From Daedaleopsis sinensis (taxonomy: Eukaryota > Basidiomycota > Agaricomycetes > Polyporales > Polyporaceae), in NCBI GenBank assembly GCA_033807695.1, contig CM066302.1, positions 4,464,001 through 4,528,000 of the forward strand: DNA of 64,000 nucleotides. Reading direction: 5' to 3'. The notes beneath the pieces were generated by a model. It had not been told where the DNA came from, did not search any database, and saw only the letters and a list, made by a program, of their open reading frames with translations. The position numbers and the translations under genes were made by a program. Shown in pieces: positions 22,882-44,017 of this stretch (position 1 is its first letter; every line of letters starts with the position of its first letter).

Positions 22882-23502
22882 GCTAATAATGTATTCATAT
22901 CAGCTTTGACAGATATCACAGAAACGCTGTGCACAAGATTCGCATTTCGGCAGATTGTGCTACGTACCCTGAGTTATGCGGAGTAGTGTTGCGGTCGCTT
23001 GCGAGTATACGGCAGGAACGTCAAGTTCAGAGTTCAGGTCTCAGGCGACCAGCAGCGCGCTATTAAGTACTCGATCAGTTATGCCTCCCGTCTTCACTGA
23101 AGACTCGTGTCCATGGACGTTTTCGCCGGACCTGCGCCCGACTTAAGAGGAGCACAAAGCAGGTCGCGATAGCATGTGAGAAAAGAAGGGCGAGGGAACA
23201 AATCAGAAGTCGACATTGTCTCGTTCTCCTTTGTGCGCGACGCCTCGTGTGCTTTCTCATGTGATCTCTGGTATGCTTCTTTTTCTTCACTTTCATTTCC
23301 TGTGCGAATCCAGGTCGTATTCCGTGCACCGACGCCGGTTTTTCCAAACCAATACATTGGCGCCCTCGCGGCTCACGGAACAGGTCCCGGACTTTCCATA
23401 GTCAAAGGTGGGCATCCCCTTCATCATCCGCAGCGACGCGCGGTTCACCCCTTCCCCACTCCTCCCAGACCTGCTCTCTCAAACGTCCGCAGTCCTCCTC
23501 TC
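22882..23502. other. Intergenic, divergent promoter region
   Basis: This lies between two divergent genes. It contains possible 5' exons of either but no firm signal. Confidence 0.4.
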
Positions 23503-24204
23503 ATGTTGAAGGCGGCGAGAAAAGAGCGAAAGCAGCGACGAAGGAGCAGTGGAAACCACCCCCCTGCTAAACGCGTACGGGTCAGTGATCCTTCGATTCC
23601 TTTCTATGTGGGAGGAAGCTTCGCTTACCCCTTCTCCCTCTTGTCACAGAGTGGTGCATCTCCCGAGCCGACGCGAGTCGCCAATTCACTCGATCCTTCA
23701 GCTGCAAACGCCTTGACGCAGAAGCCTGTGGATGCGTCGTGCCCCGTTGTCGCTACCGCACAGACCGTCTTGTACCACGATCACGGCGTCGAATATCCCA
23801 ATTTTGCGTCTCCAGGCTCTACCGCACTCGTGGGAGACGAGATTCCCTCGCGGCACGTCGGACATTCGGAGCTGGCGCATGGTGTTCCTTCCCCGCTTTC
23901 GCCTGCAACGTCGATGCTCGAGGTTAGCAACCGGCAGCTGGGCAAGGCCACTTCCTCACAGTCGACGAAGACCTCAAAACCCACGTCCATGCAGTCGACA
24001 ATGCGTGAGTGGTGTCTCAGAGAGGTCTCCCGCACGTACCCGAATTACCCATACCGCAACGACTTCGAACTCCTCGCACTTGTTTCGGGACTGTATGACG
24101 GGGTTCCCGAGGAGAACTTGGCAGCCCGACTAAAGAAGGATTACCAGAAGTTTGTGAAGCTCATGAGTGGGGAGCGCATCGCGCTCGAGCAGCCCATTCA
24201 GTAA
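23503..24204 (+). pseudogene. Family X protein, copy 2, lacks its second half
   Basis: From ATG 23503 the frame encodes a basic leader (RKERKQRRRSSG, PPAKRVRV: nuclear-type signals), a Ser/Pro linker and the family N-terminal module (MREWCLREVSRTYPNYPYRN, then DFELLALVSGLYDG). It stops at LEQPIQ, the place where the two full copies reach their exon boundary (GPITG / GIVTG). The C-terminal SPYSIR module is missing. The left end of the KDZ transposon begins 7 bp after the stop, so the 3' half was probably lost or displaced by that insertion. The remaining frame is open and could still give a truncated protein. Confidence 0.55.
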
Positions 24205-24211
24205 CAATTCT

Positions 24212-24277
24212 CATTTTAGCTGCCCAATATGATTGACTAACGACCATTCTAGCGGCCAAATCTGACTCGATCGAGCC
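24212..24277 (+). repeat. Left terminal inverted repeat of the KDZ element
   Basis: It matches the reverse complement of 43100-43165 at 57 of 66 positions. The longest shared blocks are CCCAATATGATTGACT and AATCTGACTCGATCGA. Confidence 0.92.
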
Positions 24278-25838
24278 GCACTTAGGCACATGTTCGTGTT
24301 CCGATCCGGCCCATCTGTACCGCCGCTATAGCGACTCGATCGGATGTCCCACCCGGAAGGGCGCAGCGGATAGCGGTATCCGATCCGACGTTGCCGCGCC
24401 GCTGTGTTTGCTGCTCGATCCGGACGCACGAGTCAATGCTAAAGCGGTTCGATCGAGATCTATATACGCTTACAAGGAATACCCTGCGGGCTCGTTTGTC
24501 GATACCATTAAGCTATCGCAATCAATAGCACCACCACTTCCACATCTGCGTGGTCAGATCCACCTTACAGGAACCGTTCTGGCAGACCGATCGAGCTTAA
24601 CATTCGCTCATCCGGGCAGTTCGATCCGGCGTGACAAGGCACCATCGTAGAGGCCGGATCGAGGTCCACGGTATCGCATCCGGGCGGTCAGATCCGGTGT
24701 AACAAGACACCATTGTAGAGGCCGGATCGAGTTTGTCGTTTCCATATCCGCACGGTTAGATCCAGTGTAACAAGGCGGCACTCTAGAGGTAGGATCGAAC
24801 CGCGCGGTTTTCGTATCCGGGTGGTCAGATCCAATCCGGCTTGTTCATTCCTGCAAAAGAAATACCTTTACAGCCACTGCCAGGGTCGAACCGCCACATT
24901 GCAGTCATTCAAGAGTGATACCCATATCAATCTTCCGACTAGGCTAGTAGGCTGTGTTTTAGTATACAAGGTTGTAGGTATAAGTGCCAATCCCAAGTCA
25001 CGAGATTATAACCACTTTCTGCATTCCACGCCTCTATGTAGGTTAAACCACTGATATTTGCTGCACGCATTTGCGTCTAGAGGTATTGTTGCGTCACATG
25101 TTGTCGTTGTCAGTCAGATCCAATAAACAGTGTACCCGCTTTTGCGCATGGATCGAGACAGTCACAATACGCGTATGCGCGGTTCGATCGAGATACATGT
25201 GTGCCTATTATTACTACACGATCTAGCGTTCCACGGTGCCGTAGTTGCATTCCGATCGGACCGGCCAAGGTACACGCTTCGGCGGCTCGATCGGGCCAGT
25301 GTAGAGTACATTTATGTGTTCGGATCCGAGGCCCAGTATGCACACATCAGCAGCTGGATCCATAAGACAGCCGAGGGAGGTCGGACGGGTGCTCATCCGA
25401 GAGACAGCACGGCGGAGAGAAGTCCGACGGCTGCTCGTGCAGGCAGAAACAATGCTCATATGCGCGACTCGATCCGCATACATGTGTACCCATTAATACT
25501 ATCCGATCCAGCTTCCCATTGGGCCATATTCGCATTCCGATCGGACCGGCCAAGGTACACGCTTCGGTGGCTCGATCGGGCCAGTGTAGAGTACATTTAT
25601 GTATTCAGATCCGAGGCCCAGTATGCACACATAAGCAGCTAGATCCAGAGACATCTTGATGGAGAGAAGCCGGACGGCTGCTCGCTCATCCGAGAGACAG
25701 CACGACGGAGGGAAGTCCGATGGCTGCTCATCCGGATACAATAGAAATGGCACAGCGGAAGGATCCAGATCTAGAAAATATAATAACTATCTAGTTAGAC
25801 TAAGTACAGTTCCATAGCCAGATACTTGTATGATACTA
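24278..25838. repeat. Left subterminal repeat region of the KDZ element
   Basis: Non-coding and dense in GATCCG/CGGATC and TCGATCG words. From about 24605 to 24830 there is a tandem array with a unit near 68 bp (about three copies; core: TGTAACAAG, then GAGGCCGGATCGA). From about 25180 to 25650 a unit of about 180 bp occurs twice, 286 bp apart (shared core GACCGGCCAAGGTACACGCT). These may be transposase-binding arrays; that is inference. Confidence 0.75.
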
Positions 25839-27659
25839 CTACAGGTACAGATTGTCGTCGTCGTCAACCGGGGGTTCCCATCTAGACGCCGTGGACATCA
25901 CCAGCCAGTCATTATAGTTCATCCACTCCCGCCGGCTCAGATTTGGCTCAATGTCCCCAAATTCCCATGTTTCGGCTACCGACACTGGTCCGCGAGGGGT
26001 AGTCGCCCGCGGTCTCGACCCGGATGCTATCGGGGGGGGCAACGGGGTGCTGGGCATTTGCGTGTGAGATCCGGGCGGGACAACCGGAGATGGTGCGGTA
26101 GACCTACGTGCACGAGATCCTGAAGCTGAGACTGGGGTGGGTGTGTCAGACCTGAGCTCCCGAGATCCGGAAGCAGCGAGAGAAGTCATCCCGGGTGTGC
26201 GGGTAGGAGAGGGGGAGTCCGATGGCGAGGACAGGAACAGCGGGGTGCGCTGGCGACGAGGTGTGTGTGGTGGCGGCTCCGTCGACATAACCGCGTCAAT
26301 GCGTTGCCCAAAGCCGGCGGGGACTCGGAAAGGCGAGCCCGGCGGGTCGCGCGGTTCTGCGGTAGGCGGCGCAGGGACGCGGAAAGGTGGTCGCGGGGCA
26401 TCGCGCGGGACAGTCGGGGATGCGGCGGGGACTCGGAAAGGCGAGCCCGGCGGGTCGCGCGGTTCTGCGGTAGGCGGCGCGGGGACGCGGAAAGGCGGTC
26501 GCGGGGCATCGCGCGGCACAGTGGGGGGTGCGGCGGGGACTCGGAAATGCGAGCCCGGCGGGTCGCGCGGGTCGGCGGTAGGCGGCGCGGGGACGCGGAA
26601 AGGCGGTCGCGGGGCATCGCGCGGCACAGTGGGGACTCGGAAAGGCGAGCCCGGCGGGTCGCGCGGTTCTGTGGTAGGCGGCGCGGGGACGCGGAAAGGC
26701 GGTCGCGGGGCATCGCGCGGGACAGTGGGGGGTGCGGCGGGGACTCGGAAAGGAGAGCCCGGCGGGTCGCGCGGCATCGCGGCGTGCGCAGCGGGCACGC
26801 GGAAAGGGGCCCCGGGTGGGTCGCGCGGGATTGCGGGGGGCCTGGCGGGTACGAGCAAAGGAGAGCCCGGTGGGTCGCGCGGGACAGCGCGAGGTGCAGT
26901 GGGCACGCGCAAAGGAGAACCGGGTGGGTCGCGCGGGATAGTGTGGGGTGCGTCGGGGACTCGGAAGTGGGAACCCGGCGGGTCGCGCGGGATTGCGGGG
27001 GGCCTGGCGGGTACGAGCAAAGGAGAACCGGGTGGGTCGCGCGGGACAGCGCGGGGGGCGGCGGGCACGCGCAAAGGGGAACCGGGTGGGTCGCGCGGGA
27101 CAGCGCGGGGGGTGGCGGGCACGCGCAAAGGGGAACCGGGTGGGTCGCGCGGGACAGCGCGGGGTGCAGCGGGGACTCGGAAGGGGGAGCCCGGCGGGTC
27201 GCGCGGCATCGTGGCGGGCGCGGCGGGCACGTGGAACGGGGAGGTAGACGACTCACCCGGGGTCCATCCTCGCGGCGATGATCCCGTCTGAGAGCTCACA
27301 TCGACTTCTCGGTCACGTCCCGGTATCATGAACCTCACCCTTGCAGTTCGGTTCGACGCAGACTCTTGCGACATTGGTTGGCTCCGGGAAGAGCTCGCAA
27401 AGCCCAGCTCGCTTTGGACGACGCGCGCCGGAGGTTGCGGGTGGGGACTTTGTTCCACCGCATTGCCGTGGAACACCGCTCGCGCAAGCCACGGGGCCAT
27501 CTCAAATGGTGAGGGCGAGGATGACAATCCCCTCTCCGAGGGCCCTTCCGAAGCAGGCCCCCGGTTGGCGGCTGGGGTGGACTCAGTTGCAACGTGTCCT
27601 TGGGAGCTGTCCTCCTCGCCGTCCTCGTCGCTGTCTTCGGCAAGACGGCGGAAAGACAT
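25839..27659 (-). CDS. Proline-rich tandem-repeat protein of the KDZ element (606 aa)
   Basis: A single frame starts at an ATG at 27659; an extra 5' exon with the start MRVEFDRRGAGIVFKGFCG at 27952 is possible. The N-terminus is acidic and Ser-rich (LAEDSDEDGEEDSSQ). Residues about 140-440 are around 20 tandem units of 13-16 residues with the core PRDPPGSPFRVP(A)AP, alternating with PRDAPRPPFRVPAPP. The C-terminal 80 residues are ordered and Trp-rich (VAETWEFGDIEPNLSRREWM). The DNA is a GC-rich minisatellite, so copy number should vary. No enzyme motif was seen. Its place inside the element suggests an accessory gene product; role unknown. Confidence 0.65.
   Translation of the reverse strand: MSFRRLAEDSDEDGEEDSSQGHVATESTPAANRGPASEGPSERGLSSSPSPFEMAPWLARAVFHGNAVEQSPHPQPPARVVQSELGFASSSRSQPMSQESASNRTARVRFMIPGRDREVDVSSQTGSSPRGWTPGESSTSPFHVPAAPATMPRDPPGSPFRVPAAPRAVPRDPPGSPLRVPATPRAVPRDPPGSPLRVPAAPRAVPRDPPGSPLLVPARPPAIPRDPPGSHFRVPDAPHTIPRDPPGSPLRVPTAPRAVPRDPPGSPLLVPARPPAIPRDPPGAPFRVPAAHAAMPRDPPGSPFRVPAAPPTVPRDAPRPPFRVPAPPTTEPRDPPGSPFRVPTVPRDAPRPPFRVPAPPTADPRDPPGSHFRVPAAPPTVPRDAPRPPFRVPAPPTAEPRDPPGSPFRVPAASPTVPRDAPRPPFRVPAPPTAEPRDPPGSPFRVPAGFGQRIDAVMSTEPPPHTPRRQRTPLFLSSPSDSPSPTRTPGMTSLAASGSRELRSDTPTPVSASGSRARRSTAPSPVVPPGSHTQMPSTPLPPPIASGSRPRATTPRGPVSVAETWEFGDIEPNLSRREWMNYNDWLVMSTASRWEPPVDDDDNLYL
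26330..27235 (-). repeat. Coding minisatellite, about 45-51-bp units
   Basis: Direct tandem repeat underlying the PRDPPGSP units. The composition leaves several other frames open on both strands. Confidence 0.85.
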
Positions 27660-28303
27660 TTTCTGTCAAAGGGTCAGCGAACCGGTTGAGGGCAGCATTA
27701 GGAATGACAATAAGTAATACCCTTGGAGACATGGGTGTGGAATACCGGATTTCGCTGGCTTGCTGAGAGGTGAGAGGTGAGAGCCTGAGTGGTGGCACGG
27801 CGAGACAGTCGAGTAAGAGAGACAGCAAGAGAGTCGAACAAGAGAGACGGCAAGAGAGACCCACCGGGAAATCCCAGGGCAGTTGAGTCACCAATACCAC
27901 AGAAGCCTTTGAATACAATGCCAGCACCGCGTCTGTCAAACTCAACTCTCATTTGGCAAGGCGGAATGCCGGTGTTTCCCCATGTGGTAGGCTGAGCGCC
28001 TGGTGCCGTATCCGGCCCGCGCCTTCTCTGTCATCCGGCGCAGTGTATCCGAGGCCCGGATACCCCGGATAGTCCAACCTCTTGACGTTTCCGGATGACT
28101 GCGGCCCCGGGTGAAACACATCGTTTGACTTCGCCGCGTTATAGTCCTGCGCCCGACGCAACCGTTTCCTTTGCTCCCCCCATCTTGCACGCTCTCTCTG
28201 CCCACTCTCTCTGCAAGCTCTCTCTGCACGCCCCCTCGGCAAGCTCTCTCCGCCCACTCTCTCTGCATCCTCTCTCTGTCCTTTCTCTCCGCCCTCCTGC
28301 GAC
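27660..28303. promoter_or_regulatory. Divergent promoter with mirrored purine/pyrimidine tracts
   Basis: This lies between two divergent KDZ-element genes. 27770-27870 is rich in GAGAG on the plus strand, while 28190-28295, just before the ATG at 28304, is rich in CTCTCTC. CT-rich tracts before the start codon are a common fungal promoter feature, so the two may be matching core promoters on opposite strands. Confidence 0.5.
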
Positions 28304-30509
28304 ATGGCTTCCGATCAGGCTCTCCTCGACCGCATCCTTACGATCTCCGCGCGTGCGGAACACGCTTTCTGCCGGGAGCCCCAGGAGGACCGGGAGCAAC
28401 AACGGGCGCGGTGGTGGGTTATGTTCAAGCAAGAGCTGAAGAACCTGCTCGAGGCGATGGAGCAAGTACAGTCCCCCATGCGTATCCCTCCATTCGCATT
28501 TGCTGTTTGGCAGGAGAGTATCCGGGCTTCCCAAGACCCGCAGGGCAACACGTCCATCCGTCCCCACAACCTGGTCATGTACGGCACCCGGCGAGGCACG
28601 GAAGGTGTCTTCACCGCGGACCCCGATTACCAGGTTCCGCATGTAGAAGGCTGGTGGCAAACCTTCCGTAAGTCTTTTTCTCCTCAATTTTCAATCATTA
28701 ACCTCAACGTTCTGCAGCTCTCGAGACGCGAATCCACTGGCTCCCGGCTGAGACGCGTCAACAGGTTCAAGGCCTGTTGGCTCAACGGCTGGAGTCGATT
28801 TCGGCTCCCATCCCCGACGCCCGTCCTCCCGCCTCAACCGGACCTCAGCCGGGCACAAGTTCCGCGCCTCCCGCGCCTCCCGTGGAACCAGTCCACCCGA
28901 ACCCTCCGCCCCCGCACACCGTTGACCCCTCCTCGCCCACCACCCCCAGGCGGCGTGGTAGGAAAGACCAACCCGAGCCCGCCCCGCCGAGCGATTCAAG
29001 GACACCCGATTCCAAGACTAAGAAGGGCAAACGCAAGCTCGGTGAGGCTCAGCCTCTACCCCCGGCTGACGACGACATGGACGTCGACCCCCCCAACCCC
29101 CTTCCTCCCACACCCGAGCGTGGGCGACGTCGGCGCCGCAGCAAGGACGCCTCTGGGGGCCCGGAACCCACCACTCCCACCCGAGATGCGTCCGCGTCGA
29201 GGCAGCGGAGCTCCAGCCGGAAGTCGCAACAGCCGGAGGAGGAAGAGGGGTACTCCGGGAAGTTGAGGGTGATCCGGGACCCGCCCTTCGACCCCCTCAT
29301 CCACAACCCCATCGACATCTCCACCCAAGACGTGGCGGATGTTTGGGCTCGATCGGTAAGTACCTACGGCCTTTCCGATCGTATGCGGTATCACTGATGG
29401 TTGCTGCAGTTGGTGAGCTGCACCAGCTGCCAGGAGAGGAACTACCCGGACTGCCGGGTCAATATGACCTATGGAGCGGCCTGCAACTTGTGCAGGGTCA
29501 AGAAGCTCCGGTGCTCGTTCGTCCGTCGTGGCCCCAACCAGAACCAGTACCTGCAGCGATGGTGGCTCCTTCGCGACTGGTTCCTCAAGGGCGACTATGC
29601 GAAGCACCCGGCCGACCTTCCTAGCGCATCGGGTGCGGAGTTGCAGATACCGCAGTGGCTAGTCGACAAGGTCAAGGAGGCCCGGGCGGCCAAGTCCAAG
29701 TTCGTGAAGACCGTCGTCTTCAACCCAGCCGCAACCGAGGATACACCTCCCGTGTACCTTCTCGTCACCGGTTCCACCCCTCCTCCCGCCGCACCCACCG
29801 CGCCCGTCATTCCCGCCGCTCCTGAGGCAGAAGTCCTCCCCGATCTTCCCCCAGCACCCGAACCAAGCACACCCGGCTCCCTCCCGCACACCCCGGGCGA
29901 CAGAAAAGGCAAGAGGGTCGTTCGGACCTACGGCAAGGCCCCAATCCACGAACGTCCGAGCCCGCCATCCGAGGAGGAGGACAGGCGGAAGAGAGCCCGG
30001 CCGGATGCCCCGGTGGTGCCTCCCGATATGCGTAAGTGTCCGCACTATGGGGTGGTGATTCGACGCTGACCATTGCAGGCGATTGGACAGAGATACCCTC
30101 CGTCGAGGACGAGATCGCACGCCGGCAGGAAGGAGAGGCTTCCGGGTCAACGACGCGTTCCCGGCCGCCTCCTCCCCCTCCGCAGCAGCCGGTTACACGC
30201 GAGGAAGACCCGAACCGCCCCTCGGCCACGCTGCCTGAGGAGATACAAGCCCTCCGCGCGCAGGTGGCCCAGTCCGAGGCCCGCTCGGAAACGCGTGATC
30301 GCGCGGCCATGGCGCTCCTCCACGCGATGCACACGCTGCTGATGGACCAGGCCGTCGTGTTGCAGAGCATGAGCAACCGCATCACGGTCCTCGAGCAAGC
30401 TTGGGCCCACGACGATGACTGGTCGCCGTCGGTATCCGCAGCTCCGGATAGCAGCACGGAACTGGGGGACGACCGGGTGGGTTCACCGGATACTCCGGAC
30501 GAGGTTTGA
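28304..30509 (+). CDS. Zn-cluster-like protein of the KDZ element (684 aa)
   Basis: Exons 28304-28667, 28718-29355, 29410-30031 and 30079-30509 join in phase. An N-terminal ordered domain (residues 1-150, Trp-rich) is followed by a long Pro/Ser/basic linker with NLS-like RRGRK, KKGKRK and RRRRR. At about residues 335-370 is a Cys cluster, SCTSCQERNYPDC...ACNLCRVKKLRCSF, with the CxxC-x8-C...CxxC-x5-C pattern close to fungal Zn(II)2Cys6 DNA-binding domains. A Pro-rich linker follows, then a C-terminal coiled coil (EEIQALRAQVAQSEARSETR...MSNRITVLEQAW). This suggests a nuclear DNA-binding protein that oligomerises; it could recognise element ends or regulate its genes. That role is inferred. Confidence 0.75.
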
Positions 30510-30766
30510 GCAGGGACACTTTTTTGCACTCATGTATGAACTATGGACTAATTTCTTGTACTCGCACGCTTTCTTGTACGCACGCAGATGTCGCTGAGCA
30601 GTGATAGATTTTTGCACGCATGCTTGTATGATCTATGGACTATTTTCTTGTACTCGCACGCTTTCTTGTACGCACGCAGATGTCTCGGCTAGCAGAAACG
30701 AATAATATACACAACTTCTTGGACAATACAGTGTGATAGAAGAGCAAAAAGCCCGTAATAAAATTG
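30510..30766. repeat. Tandem duplication between convergent genes
   Basis: Two copies of a segment of about 90 bp (core CTCGCACGCTTTCTTGTACG) lie at about 30532-30600 and 30620-30690, between the 3' ends of two convergent genes. Confidence 0.75.
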
Positions 30767-33700
30767 TTACAGAGATTCAAGTCGGGTAGACCTGCGTACC
30801 TTGGGGCCGTCTGGCTGAATGTTCGAAGGGCCACCCTCCGGCTGGGGGTCCTCCAGCACGCTGCTGCCAGCTACCACTTTAACCACGCGACCGCGACCGC
30901 GACCTCCTCCTCGGCTTGATCCTCCTCCCCAGCTTGCACCACGGCCTCGCACGCGTGGTTTCCGATCGTCAGGTCCGGCTGCCTGCTCGTCCCGGTCGGA
31001 CTCGCTGGCAACGCGCTCCTCGGGTACGCGCGCAGCGCGACCACGACCTCCTGCGCGCGTCTTCCGAGGAGCGCGTTTGGCAACCTGCTCGTCGTAGTCG
31101 GACTCGATGGCAGCGCGCTCCTCGGGTACGCGCGCGGCACGACCACGACCTCCGGCGCGTGTCTTTCGAGTGGCGCGCGTGGCAACCTGCTCGTCGTAGT
31201 CGGACTCGATGGCAGCGCGCTCCTCGGGTACGCGCGCGGCGCGACCACGACCTCCGGCGCGTGTCTTTCGAGTGGCGCGTGTGGCAACCTGCTCGTCGCG
31301 GTCGGACTCGTTGGCAGCGCTCTCCTCGGGTACTTGTGCGGCGCGTCCACGACCTCCGGCGCGCGTCTTCCGAGTTGCGCGTGCAGCCACCTCCTCTTGG
31401 TCGGACTCGATGGCGGCGCGCTCCTCGGATACGCGATCGCCCATGTCGTCTGCGCGGTTGCCGGGGGCTATGGGCTCCTCGGGGTGGATGTGCGCACCCG
31501 GGACAGCGTCTCCTGGGACGGCGGGGGCACGGTCATCACCAGCGCCTCCCGACAGACCAGGCGCTTTGTGATTGTCGGCGCTTCCCGATGGCCCAGGCGC
31601 CGCGTGGCTGCCAGCGCCTCCCGATGAGCCAGGCGCCGGGTGACTGCCAGCGCCTCCCGACAGACCAGGCGCTTGGTGATTGTCGGCGCTTCCCGATGGC
31701 CCAGGCGCCGCGTGGCTGCCAGCGCCTCCCGATGAGCCAGGCGCCGGGTGACTGCCAGCGCCTCCCGACGGGCCAGGCGCCGGGTGACTGCCAGCGCTTC
31801 CCGATGGCCCAGGCGCCGGGTGGCTGCCAGCGCCTCCCGATGAGCCAGGCGCCGGGTGACTGCCAGCGCCTCCCGACGGGCCAGGCGCTTCGTGATTGTC
31901 GGCGCTTCCCGATGGCCCAGGCGCCGGGGGCCTGCCAGCGCCTCCCGACGGGCCAGGCGCCGGGGGCCTGCCAGCGCCTCCCGACGGGCCAGGCGCCGGG
32001 TGGCTGCCAGCGCCTCCCGACGGGCCAGGCGCCGGGTAGCTGCCAGCGCCTCCCGACGGGCCAGGCGCCGGTTGGCTGCCAGCGTGCTCGGACATATCGG
32101 GAGCCGGACCGGAAGCCTTGGTGCGGGGGCGGTCGACAACCGAGCTCCCCACGGCGGGGGCGGCAGAGACAGCGGTGTCGGCTCCGGGAACTTGGGGATG
32201 GTAGGCTACCTTATGGCAGACCGGGAGAATATATGACTCGATCTCCTGGGGGCCATTGGATGGACTGTTGCGCATATACTCGGGCGCTCCACAGAAAAGT
32301 GGCTCGCCCTCCTCGGCCTCGAAGGCAATCTTGATGTCGCGCAAGGTCAATCCGGTAAGGAGGAGCCAGCACTGGACGTCTCCGGCAGACGAGGTCTCCT
32401 TGAGGACAGTGTCCCTAAGGTGAAGCAAATGTTCTTGCCACGCGGGAAGATTGGCATGGACGGCGGCCGGAAGGGACACATTCGGAGACGACCATCCCGG
32501 CCAGTCCGGGTAAGTCTCACTGTGTACGTATGTACATTTGCGAAGCTACCTCAATGCGGTCAGCTTTAGACATTGATAGCAGAGATGTCGCTTACCATGT
32601 GGCGCCAGCACACCAGCAACTGATGCCACTGAGGCTCGTCGCTGAGAGCCCAAAGGTAGGCAAAGGGTTCGCCCCTCTGCTGCGCCCATTTGGGAGGCTC
32701 GGCCCTAGCGGACTTGACGACGTCCGGGTCAGGAGGGACTGGAACGAGGAGAGCCGAATCCAGACTGCCATTCGCCGCTACTACCGTGTCAGCCGAGGGA
32801 ATGTCGCCGTCGACGTTAGCTACCCTCCTTGCGGCAGGGCGGGGAGCCACAGGCCAAGTAGACCGGGAGCCGGATGGGCCAGCTGCAGGGTGCGAGCCGG
32901 ATGGGCCAGCCGCACGAGCATCTGAGGGTTGGTCTGCACGCGGTCGGGGAGAGTCGCGATCAGGCCCAGACGTGTCGCCGTCTCCCTCAAAGTCGTCGTC
33001 GTCGTCGTCGTTGTCGTCGTCGTTGTCGTCGAATTCGAAGTCGTCAACGGCTGCAGATTTGATGCCCTTCTTCGCGAGTTTGGCCCGGGCTCGATCTTCT
33101 CGCTCGGCCGCCTTTGCGGAAACCTTGGCCTTGCCTTTGCCCTTGCCCTTGCCCTTGCCCTTGCCACGACGCGGCTTGGGCGGAGGATCCGATTCTACCG
33201 CCGGGTGGTCGTTGTCCATGTCGACGTTCTCGGGGAAGGCTCGCCCTTTGGGCGGGCGGGCTCGCTTGTGAGGGTTATTTCGCTTCTGGACGGCGTCCTC
33301 GCTGAGCTGAGCCCCGTACATCGCCTGGACGCGATCGCCTTGCTTGTTCAGAATGTGAGTAAACTGGAAACGGTCATCGGCATTACGAGCAGTGTCCTGC
33401 ATGTCATGAAGACATTCCCACAAGGGACCCATGTTGTCGGTGTTCATGTGGTTGGGGTCGGCCCAGGTGAACTGCCGCGTGAAGCCGTCGAGCACGAAGT
33501 AATCTCCCGGTCTTGCGGCTACCTCCCGCCAAGGCACTTTGATCAGACTCGTTTGGCCCTTCCCGGATACGAGGCCCCAGGCCTGTGCTGTGTCGGACGT
33601 CAACACCCGAACCGGTTACGTTGTGTCGGTTACTCACTGTAAAGTTCGGAGAAGCATGCGTGCACAACCTTCTGCCGAATACCGTTCCCGACGATGTCCT

Positions 33701-34709
33701 TCCCGTTATGTTGCCGAGGCAGGATGGGCCATCCGAGATCGGTCCATTGAAGCATACTCGCACCTGGTTTGGCGACGGGGGCCAACTTGTCATCTTCGCT
33801 GTCGTCGGAAGGCTCAGGGACCAATAGCTTCATCGCGTACGTGCTGACTGCGTGGGTCATACCCTCCACAGCCTTCTTGTACAACGTTTCGAAGGGCTTG
33901 ATATTTTCTGGGCCCATGAGCAGGCTCGTGTCATACCTGATTTAAATCAGTGCACGTCCCAGAGGTTATGTGACGGAGAGTGCTACTTACGTGACGACTT
34001 GCAGCTGACCCTGGTCGTCGAGGTAGCACCACACTTGCCAGTGAAACGCCCGAAACTGGTCCCAGAAAACCTTGGTAGCAGCACGGCTGTAACGCGGGCC
34101 TCTGACTTGGGCAGCTCTGTGATCGGGTAAGATCAACTACTCCAGAGTCATGGATGATTGACTAGGAAAGGGTACTTTGCAAGAACCTCTTTGGGCGGGC
34201 CGTTGTCCGTCCAGACCTTTGCTTTGGCCTTGTACTCAGCTTTCGTTTCATCCGAGAGCTCGTTGAACAGTTGGCTGCGAGCTATCATAAGGGCAGCGAT
34301 GGCCTTCTTTTGCTCGGTCTCCATGATAAGCTGCTGGCGTTCGGCAACGTCGTCCGCGTTCTCGGGTGAGTCATTGAAGACTTGCTGAGCCGTCCAGCTC
34401 GCCCGATACTCATCCGGGGTCCTCTTCTCGGCAGATTGTATCCGGCCGTTCATGAACTCGCGGATGTTCTGAGAAGATAGTTTGGTTCCCGCACGATCTC
34501 CCAGATGGGTTAACAACACCACTCACCAAGGCCAGAAAGCCGGCGGCGTATCCGCGAGGGTCGTCGTCATTTCGCTCTTTCAGGAAACGGTGGGCGCATT
34601 CCAACCGAGTTTTTTTCCGCTCTGAGGTGCTCTGAGTGATGTAGTCTTCGAGGACGTGCTCAATGAGGTACTCTCCCTCCGCTTGAGTGACAGCAAGTGG
34701 GTGGGACAT
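30767..34709 (-). CDS. Large acidic/basic repeat protein, possible HMG-like box (1213 aa)
   Basis: Exons complement(30767-32515, 32596-33587, 33638-33936, 33991-34116, 34176-34468, 34527-34709) join in phase (3642 nt). Residues about 60-160 look like an HMG-type helical box (helix AIAALMIARSQLFNELSDET, then AEYKAKAKVWTDNGPPKE). Next is a domain with FWDQFRAFHWQVWCYLDD, then WREVAARPGDYFVLDGFTRQ. A basic KGKGKGKGKGK tract and an Asp-run follow. The last exon begins with an ordered helical domain, then about 14 units of APGPSGGAGSHP (12 aa) and five units of about 32 aa with the core RKTRAGGRGRAARVPEERAA. Nuclear, DNA- or RNA-binding character is likely from charge and AT-hook-like GRGR motifs. 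Its start lies 397 bp from the divergent TET/JBP gene. Confidence 0.75.
30960..32090 (-). repeat. Two adjacent coding minisatellites
   Basis: At about 30960-31440 there are units of about 96 bp (RKTRAGGRGRA repeats). At about 31540-32090 there are units of about 36-39 bp (APGPSGGAG repeats). Both are in frame. Confidence 0.85.
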
Positions 34710-35106
34710 GGCGCAAGAGTGACAAGGGAGTATCGTGAGCAGAGATTTATTGAGGGCACTTGAAGTCTGTGTTGTGTTTTCCTACACCGAGGTACCCTCC
34801 TTCATCCATCCGGACCCCACCCGAGCTGCCCACGCTTAGCTGCGTCTTGGACACACCTGCAGTCTCTCTCATCCGATAAAGGCCTCGGATAGATGGACGG
34901 GATGGGCTTAGGTCAAACGAACGCAGCACCGATGATATCGGCTGTATACTCAGAAAGGAGACTCTAACCAAAATAGTAGGATGGGCGTGAATTTTGCTAG
35001 CCGAGATTTGATGCTAGCCGACAGTCGATTGCCGACCATCCGAACACGTTACGTCAAGTCTCCAGCATGCACGAAGCTGCTGCCACGTCGCCGTTGTTTC
35101 CGAGCA
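34710..35106. promoter_or_regulatory. Divergent promoter of the acidic repeat gene and the TET/JBP gene
   Basis: A spacer of about 400 bp between start codons on opposite strands. An alternative in-frame ATG for the TET/JBP gene lies at 34981. No TATA box is obvious. Shared upstream control is likely from the layout alone. Confidence 0.45.
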
Positions 35107-36441
35107 ATGTCCTTCTCCGAGCAGCTATTTTTCCAACACCATGTTGCGGATCGCCTTCACACCCTATTCATCCGGAAACTACATCGGGTGCGCGCCGCCC
35201 TGCCTGAGGAGAGCCCGACGGATGACTTCAAACCGCTATGGTCTCAAGAGTTGGAGCGGGATTTGGATCATGCCGCAGATGTTCTAGTGGCTGCGTGGTG
35301 CTACCCAGGTGAGTTCCAATCGCACATGTCCAACACACGTGCAGCTCAACCCGTTTTCAATAAGTTACCATGGAATGGAATGCCGAAGATCTTCGCGCGT
35401 CCCTCGGATGCCGGGCCAGGGGCCTTGACTTGAATTTGGAGAACGAGCTTTTGAACATATTTTTACCTTTCTGTCCACCGGCAAAGGTCATTGCAAATGA
35501 CCTCCCCTTGCTCCAAGTGCCTGCAATAGTGACGGATAACGTCGGCCACATCTTGATGTGGCACCTCCCAGGGATATTAAGACCTGGAAGGCAGGTAAGT
35601 CCCAGATCATCCATCTGTCTCGTCGCATACATCCATACCATATACATTCATCAGCAACAAATTCTGGACGCTACCCGACATATCGAGACACGACTCCGGA
35701 CCAGCAAGCCATCCGGGAAGGGCGGGAACAAGTGGAGAGAAGCTGGCCAGTTTTTCTCACCCGGACGAGAATGGCGTTCCGGGGCTTGGCTGGTGTGGCC
35801 CGCCGGATACCAGCTTGGCCATCAGGTAAGGCAATTTTATCCGAGCGCATGACGACATGTATCCGGCCTTGCTGACTTCATGCTCGGCTCAGACGGCCAA
35901 ATTCCCCCCCGCACCTAGCGCGTCATGGTACCATCCGAGCACCCTAGACTGGGCCCATGACAGCAAAGAATCAGGAGCCTTATTCAGCGCCTTGCTTAGG
36001 GTCGCCCACCCTGTGCAATATCAGGTTGGCTTTGAGACACTCTTCCGGGCAGCCGAACGGCATGAACAGGTAGCCGAGGCCATGAAGGCGTGGCCCATGG
36101 TTTACCATGCCCTGCACATTCTCTCTAATCGCCAATCGCCGTTCCATCGCGACATATCCTCCCAGCCGACATGGTTTGACCTTCTGATTACCCTTAGTTC
36201 CTACGAGCGTGCCCAGCTGGCCGCTAGGAACATTGGCATGCAGATATCATACAAGCCAGGTACCGCAGTGTTCCTATCCAGTTATCTCGTGCATCACGGG
36301 GTATCCGAAGTGCCACCGGATAGGCTGTGCTATGCCTTTTTCATGTCCCGAGCACTGCACAAGAACATGGCACCGCCGGATGAGGCTAATGCAAAGTCCC
36401 AAGCGGCCGTGACTCCATGGATGACCAGAGACACTTACTAG
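35107..36441 (+). CDS. TET/JBP-type 2OG-Fe(II) dioxygenase (383 aa)
   Basis: Exons 35107-35308, 35365-35594, 35655-35825 and 35893-36441 join in phase (1152 nt). The last exon carries the double-stranded beta-helix core: iron ligands His286 and Asp288 (SPFHRDISS), distal His335/336 (SYLVHHGVSE) and the 2-oxoglutarate-binding Arg345 (PPDRLCYAFFMSR). These positions match the Tet-like 2OG-Fe(II) oxygenase family of Agaricomycetes, related to TET/JBP enzymes that oxidise 5-methylcytosine or thymine in DNA. Substrate and activity here are inferred. The N-terminal 140 residues are family-specific. The gene ends 61 bp before the KDZ transposase start on the same strand, inside the transposon. A longer N-terminus from ATG 34981 is possible (42 extra residues). 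Confidence 0.85.
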
Positions 36442-36502
36442 CCAGTCCCTACGCGTAGCTACCCATCTTGTATCCATCTCTACCCACTCTACGCCCTTCT
36501 GT
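36442..36502 (+). other. 61-bp spacer between TET/JBP and KDZ genes
   Basis: Very short for two separate fungal transcription units. It is pyrimidine-rich (CTACCCATC, TCTCTACCC). It must hold the terminator of one gene and the promoter of the next, or both are read on one transcript. Confidence 0.5.
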
Positions 36503-39500
36503 ATGTCTCTACCCCGGCCCAAGACTATACATCCGGTTCAGAGGAGAGAGATAGTACCCAAGAAGTCAAGAAGAGGGACGACTTATGTGACCCGGGTGAA
36601 AAAAGGAGGAGCAACCTCTGGTACCCCGGGTGGCGCACTTTCCAACCGCTCCAGTGCGAATTTGAGCACACCCGGTACGCCGACCGGCAGGGGAGCTTCG
36701 CCCTCCGGCAGCTTCGATTTTCAGATTGAGGAGCAGCCGAAGAAGAAGAACGTATGTTGCGGTATTGATATAATGCACTGCGTCGTTGACAGACCTATGC
36801 CAGACCCCGAACGAGTATCAAAGATCATGGCTGGCAGAATGCCGGAGCAAATATCTGAATGTGCTGTACCTGCAGGAGAATGGGAATGGTGGCCTATCAT
36901 GCAGCTGTGGAGTCGCTGCTTCCTGGAGATGTATGGACTGTTTCGGGACTCCAAACCTGTGTTACTCCTGCTGCCGGGATGCACACTCTCAGCATCCGTT
37001 CCATAGGGTAGAAGCCTGGACGGGCACCCATTACAAAGCCGCGTCTCTACGCAATGTCGGGCTGACGTTGCATCTCGGACATGGGGGCCAACCCTGTCCC
37101 TGTCGACGGTTCAACTTCGTCGGCCCACCGTCACCGACATCTACCCCCCGCACGAACAAACCACCCGAACTCCACCCTCAAGCCTCGCCCACCGCCCGAG
37201 TAGCCAACGAGCTGTTCCGCGAAGCCCACGGTAGCCAAAGCCCTTTGCCCGTGTTGTTTTCGCTCGTCGGGAGCGTCAAACCATCAACTGACACACCGCG
37301 AACGACGCGATCTCTACCGCGGCTTCGCCTAGCCTCCAGCCCGCAGGGACCGGACTACAACTCGCAGCAGTCTAGCTCCCCATCGACTGCTTTCAGTTCC
37401 AGCTTGTCGCGACCGCTATCTCCCTCGTCAGCACCACCCGAATCCCCGTACAGCGAATCTGTGGCCGGGAACACTCCATTGTCCACGGCTCCTAATACTC
37501 CGACTTTCCGGGCAGGCCAGCTTGCGCCTGGTCGAACCAAGAGGACGTGGGATGACTCGGATTCTATGTCTGCAGAATCCGTGTTCCGCAAACGACTCCG
37601 GATGGCTGCGACTGAGCCGGATGCCCCGGTAGCCCCAGAAGAAGCCGACGAAGCAAGCGATGGTGAATGGGAAGACGACAACCCAACTGATCCCGTCAGC
37701 AAGGAGCTTGAGGATGAGGGCTATACGGTAGAGAAGGAAGACCGCGAGCACATGCCCGGAGATAAAGAGCAAACTGGGGCGATCCCCGTCGCAACCACCC
37801 GCCGGGTGGTCAGCTCCCAAATGATGGTTATCGTCGACACGACCGGCATTCACGAGCTACCCGTAGCTCCATGTCTATGTCCCACCGCGAAAGCGATCGA
37901 CATCCAACTTCTGACTCTGGGTCTTTATCCAGCCACCCAGCGGCGACCAAAGACTGCTTTCACCACGCGCTGCTTGGACGATGTGCTCTTGACCAACAAG
38001 GAATGTCGAACCGCCGTAATGAACTACTATAACCGGCTGAGGCGTCTCACCAACGACATCTTCCCCCATACTGTCCCGGTATGCGATCTCACCGAAAATT
38101 CCAACACACTACTAAACTTTCATCAGGATCGCTACCGAGACATGTTGAGGGTATCCCGACAGTGGCGAAATCTCAAGGGAAGGAAGTTTCATGGGATAGG
38201 GTATCCGGATGCACCCGAGCCTGGGCCGGGAGGGCTGGCAATCTTTTGTCCGGCCTGTCCGAGGCCAGGAGTCAATATGCCGGAAGGATGGGAGCAGGAT
38301 AGGCTGCCGTATGTCGCTCCTTGCTCATACTAGCAATGCGACTAACTATAATGCTAGGTGGAAGCATCGTGCATCTATGATTATGGATGGGAACTTTACT
38401 GCTCAACACCGCAAAATGAAGAATCCGGAGGACGATGTTCGCTTTGCCGACGGACATGGCTTTATGGTAGAAGACGCCCCTTACCGAGAGCACTTGAAGA
38501 CGGCCTTCCGCCGGAGACAGGTGCGTACGCTGCGTATCCGTGAACACCCGAATATTATCTGACCATAGAGGGAGCAGCAACTCACCTGCCATGACCATCG
38601 CGCTGTACTCTCTGCGTCAGCCGTCCGACCGGGGCTGGAGTCTACTGGTATCGGCGCCGTCGCATGTAGCCGGCATGGGTTTTTCTATCCGCGCTGTGTG
38701 GTGAACTTTGAGAAAGGCGAAGGGTAGGTGGAGTTCAATCCTGGGACGCCATATGAACGTACTGACAACTAATAGCCAAGGGAACATGGACTACGCCTTT
38801 TATCAAGCGATGTTGTTCATATACGGCATCACCATGATATTGTTGTTCTACGACATCTACTGTTTTTACTGCCGTCACCTTTGGGAGAGGTTTGACAAGA
38901 GTCCCGGGCTATCAATGCCAGAACATCTTCAAGTGGATGGAGGGATCGATCAATTTCATGTTCATGGCCATGTCAAGGAATGCTACCCTCGCTACTCACC
39001 GAATTTCATTGCCGGCGCAGGCATTCAGACCGCCGACATCATCGAAACTCTGTGGGTCAAGACCAATCAGATTGCCGACAGTACTCGAGGAATGTCCAGC
39101 GCACACAGACAGGAAAGCATCGACGACATCATGAACGACTCCAATTGGACCAAGTTGACACGTCACAGTACGGACTTTCCCCCTTGTATTATATCCCGGT
39201 AGAGCTGACTCTCCATCGGCAGCCGCTTATTTAGTAAAGAAGTGGAAAGCTGCTTGTGCCGAATACGAGCCGGCAAAGGTGGCCCTGGAAGAGGTGACTC
39301 CTCAGTCTAACCCGGAGGCGGTTGCTGGATGGAAGACCCTTGCCGAACAAGCAGCAGCCGCTCGCCGGGATAACATCGAGATGATGGATATATATGACGT
39401 TCAATCTTCCAAAAGTGAGTGCACACACGGATGCTTGCTACATTTCTCATTGATTTGTGTCCAACAGTTCCAACCAAAGCGGATATCGCATTGGAGTTAA

Positions 39501-40770
39501 CCCGGGAAGAAAACCAGGGACGGCGCGGGTATACTAAGGGGGCAGCCGGCTGGATACTTTCCGGTCTCAAGATTGAAGAACAATGGTAAGAATGGAGCTA
39601 AGAGGGTGTGATACCTGTAGACAGTACTGATGAGGACCATACAGCTTGTTGGTAGCCGCGAAGGCGAGAACCATCAATGCAAACTCCCCAACACCAGAAA
39701 GGTTGACATTGGAGCAAATGAGGAGTCGCCTGCTGACCGACATCACAAAGTTTCACCGCCAAGCATCCAAGTTTGTCCCAGCATCAGTCGTCAGCGAGGC
39801 CATTGCACGAGCTCCCCTCGGAAGTCCAATAGGGCCCGGCTGGGACAGGCTCGATGACGATCCGACGGGAGAACAGGAAACAACACTGGGGTCGCGACCA
39901 CCATCGCCCGACGACGACATCCCGGAAGCGGATACCGCAACCCCAAGGGATATCTCTCAGGCACCACCCGAACGACTGACCATCTGCTTACCTTCTCACC
40001 TCGGCATCAACGTCTGCACCACTCACAAACTGAACAAGTTGGTAGAAGCCGAGCGAAAACTTCGTGTTGGCCAGATGAACGACGCGCTTCATCGGGTCCG
40101 GGTAGCCGTCGGATACAAGTCTGTTCTCTATCGCACATCGGTTCGCCACTCGGGCACACACCGTCAAAAACTCCGCAGCTTCGACGACGTTCATCTCGTT
40201 CAAGCCGATGTGCTTGCCAGTGCTCGGCTGTACACTGCGGCTCGGGACTCGTATACCAAACTCTACAAGCGTGGCAAGCCCGACGACAATGCTGAGCTAG
40301 CAACGAGTCTCGACAAATACAAGGTGCTGGAGAAGGCGGATCTCAAGGCCAATACTGCGCTCATCGAGCACAGCGTTCGTGGAGTTAGCCGGGAACATTT
40401 ACCCTGGTTCTGGGGTCTGGGGATGGACGCAGCCTCCCGGGATGAGGGATGGTCGGGAGAGCGTAAGCACTTCGGCTGAGATATAGAAATATCCCATCGC
40501 TAATGCTACACAGTCGCCAGAGTGATATGGCTGCGGGCACATGCCCGTCACATACGTCTTCAAGAGGAGATTGTTCTACTTCTAACCGAGATGGAGAAGA
40601 CATCCGCGACCTTCCACCATGAGGAGACAAGATGGAGGGGTCGGGAAGCATCAAGCTACCGGGGGTGGGCGGCTCGCCAGGCGACCCTATGGGGAGATTT
40701 GCGAAGCCATGCAGATACTGAGTTTGCTTCTGTTAAGCTGCTGTACCCTCCACCTGATGTGACCCTCTAA
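36503..40770 (+). CDS. KDZ transposase with N-terminal CxC2-like cysteine cluster (1266 aa)
   Basis: Exons 36503-36751, 36804-38078, 38127-38308, 38358-38520, 38569-38723, 38776-39167, 39223-39414, 39468-39585, 39645-40462 and 40514-40770 join in phase (3801 nt) with no stop. At residues about 115-190 is a Cys/His cluster (CSCG, CMDCFG, CYSCCRDAHSQHPFHRVE) of the CxC2 type found with KDZ enzymes. A Ser/Pro linker follows, then the conserved entry APCLCPTAKAIDIQLLTLGL. The RNase-H-like catalytic core has MIMDGNF (first Asp), DVRFADGHGFMV, TGIGAVACSRHGFFYP, NMDYAFYQA, FYDIYC (second Asp), GGIDQFHVHGH, RYSPNFIAGAGIQTADIIETLW (catalytic Glu region) and GMSSAHRQESIDDIMNDSNW. The C-terminus is helical. 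The enzyme should excise and insert the element in the nucleus. Confidence 0.92.
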
Positions 40771-41228
40771 CCATTAGAATGTAACAATTTGCGAGCTATT
40801 CAACGGTGGTCCTGCTTCAATTTTGGGCCGGCTAAGTAATCCCGCAACTGTATCCGATCCGGGTGCCTAAGAGGCAACACAATAGTATTCGATCGAGGCG
40901 TGACAGTGGGTACTCGAACCGTCCGATCCGGGTGCTCGAGCGGGTACTCGAACCGTCCGATCCGGGTGCTCGAGCGGGTACTCGAACCGTCCGATCCGGG
41001 TGCTCGAGCGGGTACTCGAACCGTCCGATCCGGGTGCTCGAGCGGGTACTCGAACCGTCCGATCCGGGTGCTCGAGCGGGTACTCAGCCCACAGGATCTG
41101 CGTGCGCGAGTGGTAAGAGACTTGAGCATATATCAGCCGATGGGATGAATTGGAATGCGCGCGGATATCACGCAAGCTACTACCAAGCAGTATTACAGAC
41201 AGTGATACATCAGGGAAACTACAAACAT
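40771..41228. other. Spacer between convergent genes
   Basis: Holds the 34-bp tandem array described separately, and otherwise unique sequence that probably includes both terminators. Confidence 0.5.
40908..41085. repeat. 34-bp tandem array, five copies
   Basis: The unit contains TACTCGAACCGTCCGATCCG followed by GGTGCTCGAGC. Full copies start at 40908, 40942, 40976, 41010 and 41044, nearly without change, followed by a partial sixth. It carries the GATCCG word that is also dense in the left subterminal region. Confidence 0.93.
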
Positions 41229-41941
41229 TTATTCAGATTCGTCATCGTGAACGATGAGGGCATCTAGATCAGACTGATGTATAGTCATTGGCCGTGGCTG
41301 CGAGTACTCCTTAAAATGGTGAACGATAGAAAAGTTAACAAGTGACGTACCACGAGACTGTCCCCAGACGTCCACCATGATGGCTTCGGAATACCATCGG
41401 TGTCTGTCCATGTCCACCACACAGGGCCCAATTTCCGGGCACCTGCGGATAGGTCGCCGTAGGATTGCTGCACCATGAAATCCCGCGCGCCTTGCATCCG
41501 AATTTGCGATATACTGGCAATGTTGACGCGAAGTCGCATACCGTACCACTCGGTTTGCTCGAGCACTATCGCCATCGGCGACGGCGGTCTATCCGGCGGG
41601 TGGATTTGGGATAGAGTGACGGCCACGCCATAGCTGTACGCTGCTATCCACTGCAACCCTTGGTTAGCGCGCGGTATAAGGGAAAGGGAACGCAAGTGAG
41701 TTTTCACCAGCTCGCGACCGATGCCATGGGCGAATCTCGCAGTATCCGCCGTACTCGGGTTCAGGATGCGTTTGTAGGCCAGGAGTGCCTCCTGCATCCT
41801 CCAGCCGAGGAGGTCGAGCTCGGAATCAGCGGAAGTCTTGACTAGGTCCCGGTGGGTGGGTACAGTCGCTTGTTCTAGTGACTCTAGGGTTGGGAGCTGG
41901 GGAGCGCCGGATACACTGGATGGGTCGTTCGGCTGCGACAT
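41229..41941 (-). CDS. KDZ-element protein of unknown function (223 aa)
   Basis: Exons complement(41229-41309, 41351-41941) join in phase. The start MSQPNDPSS is an ATG at 41941. The protein has a helical N-terminal half (LGWRMQEALLAYKRIL, then GIGRELVKTHLRSL) and a conserved-looking middle (GLQWIAAYSYGVAVTL, then TEWYGMRLRVNIASIS), followed by a WWTWTDTDG motif. The C-terminus is short and acidic (LIVHDDESE). No known domain. It is the outermost gene on the right side of the transposon and converges on the transposase. It might help in transposition, but nothing in the sequence shows that. Confidence 0.6.
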
Positions 41942-43099
41942 GGCGGGAGAGTGCAAGCAGGCAGTGGCGCGACCATTGATACTTATGTGCCGAGTTTGCG
42001 AGTTTGCGCTATTGTACCTGGAACAATAGGCGACTTGCCGGCTGACTAGACGCCCGGTTGTTCCGTTATTGTTCCCCATGTCAGGGAGTCCAGACCCAGG
42101 CTCCTCACCTGGGCTCCGCGGACATTGTCCACATCCGAGAGGTTTCCGGAGCCAGGGGTGCTGAAGGTTAGCAAGCTGCGACACAATGTTGGAAGCAAGG
42201 CAGCCGGGAAAAGACAAATGTGCCGGATGCTGGGTGCGTGGAAATATTCGTTCGGGTGACCGAAATGGGAACGCGGGGAGTCAGATCGAGTCGCGTGTGC
42301 GGGTATCTATGTGTTCGGATCGGATAGACTGACCGGCAGTAGACCTATGCAGAGGTGACTCGCAAGCTGCTGGCAATGGATGCGAGGCAGCCCGGAGACG
42401 ACAAATCATTGCCGGATGCTGGGCGCGCGGAGATATTCGTTCGGGTGACCAAAATGGGAACACGGGGAGGCGGATCGAGTCGCGCATGCGGGTATGTATG
42501 TGTTCGGATCGAACAAGCTGAGATAAGTGTGGTAGTAGCTCCAGTACTTTACACTCAGCTGTACAGCCGGTTTGAACATGTGTAGACAAGCTATTGTAAT
42601 CCAAATAGCCACTTGAGGTTGTATTTGTCCCTGAGATGCCGGATAGTCGTAGTAGATTGGTCCCCAGTCATCTACTACTACGTTGACACAAGCCGAGCTA
42701 TTTGCTTCTGACCCGGGAAATAACATGTAACAGCATTTCCCTAGCTGTGGAAAGCTATAAGAACATATAGGATCAAGTACTGGAGGGATTCATGTGACAA
42801 CGGGTAGGTACGGATACCATGCTCCCGAGGTCCGCTTTGACCTGTGCTCGTCATACTATAAGTGAAAGGTTAAACAATTGGTATAAAGGTTATATGAGCC
42901 ACTAAGGGACTAATTAGAAGGGTATAGCGTAGCAAGAGAGCCGGGACCGCTACACTGTAGGTCCAATTCAAGGCTCCAGAGGTCGCAGGCAATAAGGCAG
43001 GGTACCCGGAAGTCACTCCGAATACCCCCCCGGATCGAACAGTAAATATGGTATATATGACCCCACCCCGATCCATCCGCTCGGAAAGGTAAATAGGTT
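41942..43099. repeat. Right subterminal region of the KDZ element
   Basis: Non-coding. A segment of about 100 bp (core ATATTCGTTCGGGTGACC, then GATCGAGTCGC and TATGTGTTCGGATCG) occurs at about 42225-42325 and 42415-42510, 190 bp apart. The last part shares ATGTGTTCGGATC with the left subterminal region near 25314. The remainder is AT-richer with no gene. Confidence 0.7.
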
Positions 43100-43165
43100 G
43101 GTTCGATCGAGTCAGATTGGCCCGCTAAAATGGCCATAAGTCAATCATATTGGGTAGCTATAATG
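43100..43165 (-). repeat. Right terminal inverted repeat of the KDZ element
   Basis: Reverse complement of 24212-24277 with nine mismatches. Confidence 0.92.
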
Positions 43166-43183
43166 TAATATGTTTACTGAGCT

Positions 43184-44017
43184 ATGTGGCTCGAGGTGCT
43201 GAAGGACAGCCTGATGGTACGAGGCATCCCGTCGAAGTTGGTGAAGCCAGTGCCGTTCGGCCTCCACATCTCTACAACGCTTCCTGCGCCAAAGGTCCCG
43301 TCACCGTCTCAGCTACCGATGTCTGCAACGCTCCGCCAATGGTGCGAGAAGACCGTCCACGAGAAGTATCCGAGCTACTGCGTTCGAAACGACTACGAAC
43401 TTTTACAACTGGCCGCATCCGGTTCTTGGTACGCTCTCGAAGACGATATCGCCAGCCGTCTGGAGTTGGACTTCGAAATGCATCTGAAGAACACCGGTCG
43501 TCAGGACGATCGGGAGGGTGCCCTCGAGAGCATCTCCAAGGTGCTGAACGTTCAAGGACCAATTACCGGGGTATGTCTCCATTTCGATCGCATGCGCTAT
43601 GTAAGTATAGACTTAACTCGATGATAGGCAAAGCCTTGCCACGGTGATCCCAACGTTCAGATGTATGCCATCAAAGGAAGCCCATACTCAATCCGAGTCT
43701 GGCCTGGATCCCAGCGATTCCGAGAGAACTGCTTGGATCTTGTTCGCACCGACACCAACACTACGATTGTAGTGGGCCGAGCACCAGAAGGCTACAAGTT
43801 GTACCTCGAGCCTTTCGGCGAGCGGTGGCTTAGTCTTGGCGACGATTACGAACTCAAGACAGCAGAGGAGAATTTCGGAATACCAGCCAGCGAACGAATC
43901 GCCGTGGAGGAGAAGTACATCGTGCTTGACGGGATGAAGTGTTTGATGAAGACACCTCCTGGGTTGGCGGATGTGCGCTTCAAAATAGGCATCCGCCCGA
44001 AGACGAAATCGGAGTAA
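43184..44017 (+). CDS. Family X protein, copy 3 (258 aa)
   Basis: Exons 43184-43570 and 43628-44017 join in phase. The N-terminal module (LRQWCEKTVHEKYPSYCVRN, then DYELLQLAASGSWYA) is followed by an exon boundary at GPITG and the C-terminal module (SPYSIRVWPGSQRFRENCLD...EEKYIVLDGMKCLMKTPPGL...DVRFKIGIRPK). It is clearly paralogous to copies 1, 2 and 4 but strongly diverged from copies 1 and 4. The ATG used lies only 19 bp outside the right end of the KDZ element, so its original 5' end and promoter may have been replaced by the transposon; an internal Met (LPMSATLRQWC) is an alternative start. Function unknown. Confidence 0.65.

Follow-up and report, generated by a model that had tools for sequence, protein, structure and literature searches.

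The DNA described here is a stretch of 64,000 nucleotides from Daedaleopsis sinensis (assembly GCA_033807695.1, CM066302.1, positions 4,464,001-4,528,000 of the forward strand), hereafter called the window. Its central part is occupied by a complete transposon that carries six predicted genes, including a KDZ transposase and a TET/JBP dioxygenase, and that interrupts an open reading frame of the host. The coordinates of the element, its genes, its flanks and its other copies are compiled in Table 1.

Table 1. Features of the window element and of its family. Positions refer to the window unless another contig is named.
Feature	Position	Strand	Remarks
Complete transposon, 18,999 bp, 5'-CAGCCC...TATGTG-3'	24190..43188	+	borders common to C4:472815-491686 and C3:186924-205812
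Left target-site duplication, GCTCGAG	24183..24189	.	same 7-mer at both borders
Right target-site duplication, GCTCGAG	43189..43195	.	perfect 7-bp pair with the left copy
Left inverted-repeat arm, subterminal	24203..24277	+	13 bp inside the element end; 62/75 against the right arm, 57/66 in the core
Right inverted-repeat arm	43100..43174	-	62/75 against the left arm
Gene 1, 606 residues, single exon	25839..27659	-	proline-rich, repeats of about 18 residues; no Pfam match; relative in the sister family
Gene 2, 684 residues, 4 exons	28304..30509	+	Zn2Cys6-like cluster, C-x2-C-x7-C-x9-C-x2-C-x6-C
Gene 3, 1,223 residues, 6 exons	30767..34709	-	HMG-box-like domain in exon 2 (34176-34468); C-terminal half repeat-rich
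Gene 4, predicted TET/JBP dioxygenase, 403 residues, 3 exons	35107..36441	+	H306xD308, S311, D317, H356
Gene 5, predicted KDZ transposase with CxC2 domain, 1,279 residues, 9 exons	36503..40770	+
Gene 6, 219 residues, 2 exons	41229..41941	-	C-terminal motif WWxW...P.WW; no known domain
Interrupted host open frame, left part	23173..24189	+	continues at 43196
Interrupted host open frame, right part	43196..43624	+	paralogues align across the junction
Full copy 2, 18,872 bp	C4:472815-491686		CGCTCGC pair at both sides
Full copy 3, 18,889 bp	C3:186924-205812		GATGGTC pair at both sides
Relic, left end only	C1, from about 1304222
Relic, right end only	C8, near 588.3 kb
Relic, right end only	C4, near 3798.2 kb

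The borders were fixed by aligning the flanks of the matches that the ends of the element have in the genome, together with the 7-bp target-site duplications. An earlier, sequence-only reading of the window had placed the element at 24212-43165; the comparison of copies and the 7-bp duplications put the true ends 22-23 bp further out, where the termini are 5'-CA..TG-3'. The same reading had reported 66-bp inverted ends agreeing at 57 positions, and these are real: the best ungapped alignment of 66 columns again gave 57/66, where 300 shuffles averaged 28.6 and never exceeded 35, and the full arms are longer still.

The exon models are predictions, made from sequence only by a splice-aware script with restricted frames, which drew on the protein similarity to a sister family described below. 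They comprise 25 exons and 19 introns in the six genes, with no internal stop in the window copy; every intron is GT-AG because the script permitted no other splice sites. The six in-frame genes of the sequence-only reading, which had given about 24 exons for five of them, could be rebuilt. Its repeat protein of 1213 residues and small protein of 223 residues are both open, at revised lengths of 1,223 and 219 residues, and its 606-residue protein is indeed a single open frame (gene 1). In gene 3, the script preferred an extra 45-bp intron within the repeats (1,208 residues), and this stretch was kept by hand as one exon. When the models were carried to the other two full copies, all 18 gene copies showed an ATG start, a terminal stop, GT-AG introns and no internal stop. 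Length varies between the copies only for gene 1 (606, 624 and 556 residues) and gene 3 (1,223, 1,162 and 1,162 residues), in multiples of three bases.

The genome searched comprises 51.6 Mb in 24 contigs, and all match counts reported for it are lower bounds. A search with the left end returned at least nine end matches, of which six come from the three full copies and three from one-ended relics. Each full copy is flanked by a perfect 7-bp duplication (3/3), with a different 7-mer at each. The window copy diverges from the copies on C4 and C3 by 0.32% each, and these two differ from one another by 0.04%. The sequence-only reading had called an intact autonomous element of this size with such cargo uncommon; in this genome the family is not unique, with full copies at three sites, four loci of a sister family and 22 TET loci in all. 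Among the findings that it named as speaking against it were ends at unrelated loci without the internal genes; among the at least nine end matches listed, no pair of ends without internal genes was found. In three aligned stretches of two relics, 96 CpG-to-TpG/CpA differences were counted against 22 in the reverse direction, in alignments of at least 89% identity only, with shorter overlapping repeat matches dropped and the ancestral state not known. Methylation of CpG by the host would be expected to cause such a loss in these repeats.

With one copy of the duplication removed, the joined flanks are open through 481 codons, and three paralogues of the interrupted frame (C3:2716049, C7:1068618 and C9:152446; 49-56% identity) span the junction; in two, a gap of a single residue lies three residues ahead of it. 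Judged by sequence, these paralogues stand in for the presumed empty site. For the protein of the interrupted host frame, Pfam gave no match at E 0.01. Joining the flanks of the C4 copy (900 bases per side) gives an open frame of 469 codons, for which no gene is claimed; the same treatment of the C3 copy gives no open frame longer than 163 codons. On either side of the element lies a 1,994-bp direct repeat (window 19784-21777 and 47023-49016), 99.85% identical between its two copies, which contains sequences distantly related to the interrupted frame. Target duplications were looked for at this repeat and none was found.

The protein encoded by gene 5 matches the Pfam domains KDZ (PF18758; E 2.3e-46) and CxC2 (3.1e-22), and D595, D714 and E778 are its candidate catalytic residues, proposed from conservation across four families. 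Gene 4 matches Tet_JBP (2.1e-13), and the solved relatives found for it are CcTET-type entries only (PDB 7vpn, 7w5p and 8jkk; E 6e-22). In the alignment to 7vpn, which covers residues 48-380, H306, D308 and H356 fall on the metal-ligand positions, D317 on the position of Asp337, critical for 5-methylcytosine (5mC) in CcTET, and S311 on position 331. This is the residue pattern described for the AG-type TET/JBP proteins of Kyakuja transposons, namely HxD, a distal His, an Asp337 equivalent and Gly or Ser at 331 (Kojima 2025, PMC12730594). The claim made from the letters of the window, of a KDZ element that is complete and has its TET/JBP gene intact, is supported; five other genes are open besides.

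Kyakuja elements that carry TET, end in CA..TG and make 7-bp duplications have been published, with Polyporales among the hosts of TET-positive Kyakuja (Kojima 2025, PMC12730594, where Iyer et al. 2014 is cited). The association of KDZ with TET/JBP, which the sequence-only reading took as established in basidiomycetes, is on record for the Kyakuja of Agaricomycetes. The window family displays the KDZ domain, the 7-bp duplication at all full copies and the 5'-CA..TG-3' termini of that group. Zisupton, like the Dileera family Zisupton-1_PGr, has a target duplication of 8 bp (PMC12730594). On these sequence characters, its identity as a Kyakuja-type KDZ transposon appears near certain.

Diverged relatives of the element are found in the same genome. 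The sister family is about 70% identical to the window element in DNA, and the one copy examined, on C1, holds all six genes in unchanged order and orientation, at 31-92% identity by segment. In blocks chosen by similarity, NG86 estimates of nonsynonymous divergence (dN) between the two families are 0.19-0.57 and those of synonymous divergence (dS) about 2-3 or undefined; with YN00, gene 1 alone gave a value (0.69 to 1.04). Third codon positions are the most divergent in all six genes. In two further families, C (on C11) and D (on C2), genes 2, 3, 4, 5 and 6 recur in order, gene 2 being weak in family C. The gene models of the sister, C and D families come from the script used for the window and are imprecise where there are repeats; the transposase model of family D is without part of its middle, and that transposase may be decayed. 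The ends of the sister family show no clean CA..TG plus 7-bp duplication, and no such pair was found for families C and D within the stretches examined. The inverted repeats that were seen in the first 10 kb of each stretch examined for C and D looked GC-rich or chance-like. At C1:5344001-5369000, the starts of two sister copies of like orientation are separated by about 19.1 kb and lie no more than about 62 kb from the contig end; a palindrome lies beyond the right end of the first.

A genome-wide search with Pfam Tet_JBP gave 22 TET loci, whose neighbourhood tables were read by eye. A KDZ match lies 2.0-4.2 kb downstream on the same strand at 21 of them; the exception, C8:554527, was judged among the KDZ matches listed (175 in the genome). 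A relative of gene 3 stands divergently upstream at 19/22 loci (not at C4:3438748, C4:3553401 and C8:554527), and a relative of gene 6 stands downstream at 19/22 (not at C1:5375943, C8:600028 and C8:554527). Relatives of gene 2, searched with the window query alone, occur at nine loci. Away from the TET loci, gene 6 matches accompany gene 2 and transposase DNA (C12:2133674), a gene 3 relative (C8:2746818) or a KDZ match (C7:3509026 and C8:581354), or sit in the C8 relic of the window family; a second gene-6-like match adjoins family E (C5:913287). At the 19 loci where their strands were compared, gene 6 and KDZ point the same way in 13 and opposite ways in six. The opposite arrangement is confined to the window and sister families, while both genes share one direction in C and D. 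Most simply, the common ancestor of these two families would have undergone a local inversion, since the window and sister families share the arrangement.

The remaining genes are less readily classified. As single open frames, genes 1, 2 and 3 have no Pfam match at E 0.1, and genes 2, 3 and 6, as spliced proteins or conserved parts, have none above the cut-off. Zn2Cys6 clusters are spaced CX2CX6CX5-12CX2CX6-8C; in gene 2, six cysteines are invariant in the four families aligned, and its match to Pfam Zn_clus (E 0.1) reaches 13.2 bits against a cut-off of 21 and spans only 14 residues. Exon 2 of gene 3 yields a predicted structure with a mean predicted local distance difference test score (pLDDT) of 81.6 from residue 22 on, and its structural neighbours are HMG boxes, with modest scores. 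The HMG cut-off of Pfam (25.4 bits) is not reached by gene 3, the best value being 16.3 in family C, and the window and sister proteins gave no HMG match. Both the cluster of gene 2 and the HMG-box-like domain of gene 3 suggest DNA binding. Beyond the source genome, homologue searches returned one match for the gene 3 domain (P0002; 7,990 candidates scored) and one for gene 6 (P0001), whose predicted structure has a pLDDT of only 37. Gene 1 was detected in no family but the window and sister ones. No biochemical role can be assigned to gene 1 or to gene 6; the latter regularly accompanies the KDZ/TET unit.

Most probably, the window element is a TET-positive DNA transposon of the Kyakuja type (KDZ) that moves by cut-and-paste and has recently been mobile, a reading to which a probability of roughly 0.9 is attached. 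Its transposase would cut at the CA..TG ends and join with a 7-bp stagger. The dioxygenase would oxidise 5mC, and possibly also N6-methyladenine, that the host has placed on the repeat, and this oxidation could keep the element transcribable, its ends cuttable, or both. The products of genes 3 and 2 may act as DNA-binding helpers that bend or pair the long inverted ends or recruit the dioxygenase to the element. That the TET gene serves self-demethylation, and with it escape from silencing, is the somewhat favoured interpretation of its presence. Rather doubtful is the more specific proposal that the conserved set (transposase, TET, HMG-box-like bender, zinc-cluster and gene 6 proteins) forms one complex that couples oxidation of its own ends to cutting.

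The enzyme might instead mark the element rather than free it, with oxidised methylcytosine as a stable chromatin mark laid down untargeted on all repeats. Such marks do lie over many transposons of Coprinopsis and Laccaria, retrotransposons included, and in Coprinopsis mainly together with 5mC (PMC12730594). KDZ matches nevertheless adjoin 21 of the 22 TET loci, as would be expected of an enzyme that benefits its own element; this is not decisive, and marking is held to be unlikely. Far less plausible is a chance capture of host genes as the origin of genes 1, 2, 3 and 6, which would then not be functional components of the element. They lack Pfam matches over the cut-off and hence any known element function, and gene 1 was found in two families only; yet relatives of genes 3 and 6 keep their places at 19 of the 22 TET loci, the remaining gene 6 matches adjoin KDZ, adjoin a gene 3 relative or sit in a relic of the window family, and the order of genes 2 to 6 is preserved in families C and D despite their divergence. 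A dead segment, duplicated passively and merely resembling a transposon, for which only the flanking direct repeat offers a parallel in the window, is practically dismissed by three copies at different sites with identical borders and different perfect 7-bp duplications.

The recurrent accessory genes may represent a built-in means of escape from silencing. Near-identical, open and apparently recent copies with exact ends at defined sites make this family a direct test bed for the proposal that TET enzymes of transposons overcome silencing by methylation, and the recurrent partner genes are herewith named for inclusion in such anti-silencing tests.

Elsewhere in the window, an open frame at 8977-10479 matches Transposase_21 (1.4e-14), with a Plavaka match below the cut-off, and represents a CACTA/Plavaka-like transposase. 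Another open frame, at 104-733, has a JmjC domain (1.1e-8), and an AT-richer stretch at 58329-59000 contains tandem repeats (58341-58929).

Compared with known systems, the proposed role has precedents in other transposons. Spm, with its TnpA protein, is an anti-silencing transposon that relies on an element-encoded protein; both Spm/TnpA and Vandal act via a sequence-specific regulatory or binding protein, whereas the window element has a predicted oxygenase. In plant Vandal, as proposed here, the element's own protein counters silencing of its own DNA (cited in PMC12730594). CcTET of Coprinopsis cinerea resembles gene 4 in the catalytic HxD...H and the Asp337 equivalent but has Gly at 331 in place of Ser, and is a distant relative by E-value. 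The KDZ elements KDZ1-KDZ3 of Cryptococcus neoformans are likewise mobile, and they too have inverted repeats and target duplications. They differ in their size of about 9-11 kb, CxC1 instead of CxC2, inverted repeats of 139-241 bp and duplications of 4-8 bp, and the passages describing them report no TET gene (PMC12810828). Inverted repeats are absent from two Laccaria Kyakuja families, a report made for those two and not extended to Kyakuja in general (PMC12730594), while the window element has its subterminal arms. The gene set of the window element was not found announced in the openly accessible literature searched; the element type is already described, and the accessory gene set, whose conservation was not encountered in accessible papers, may or may not be catalogued in Repbase. 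The closest counterparts are the TET-positive Kyakuja, which share the KDZ transposase, the AG-type TET/JBP, CA..TG ends and 7-bp duplications; their description in the Kyakuja text of PMC12730594 names no further proteins and mentions neither zinc nor HMG, whereas the window element carries four more genes.

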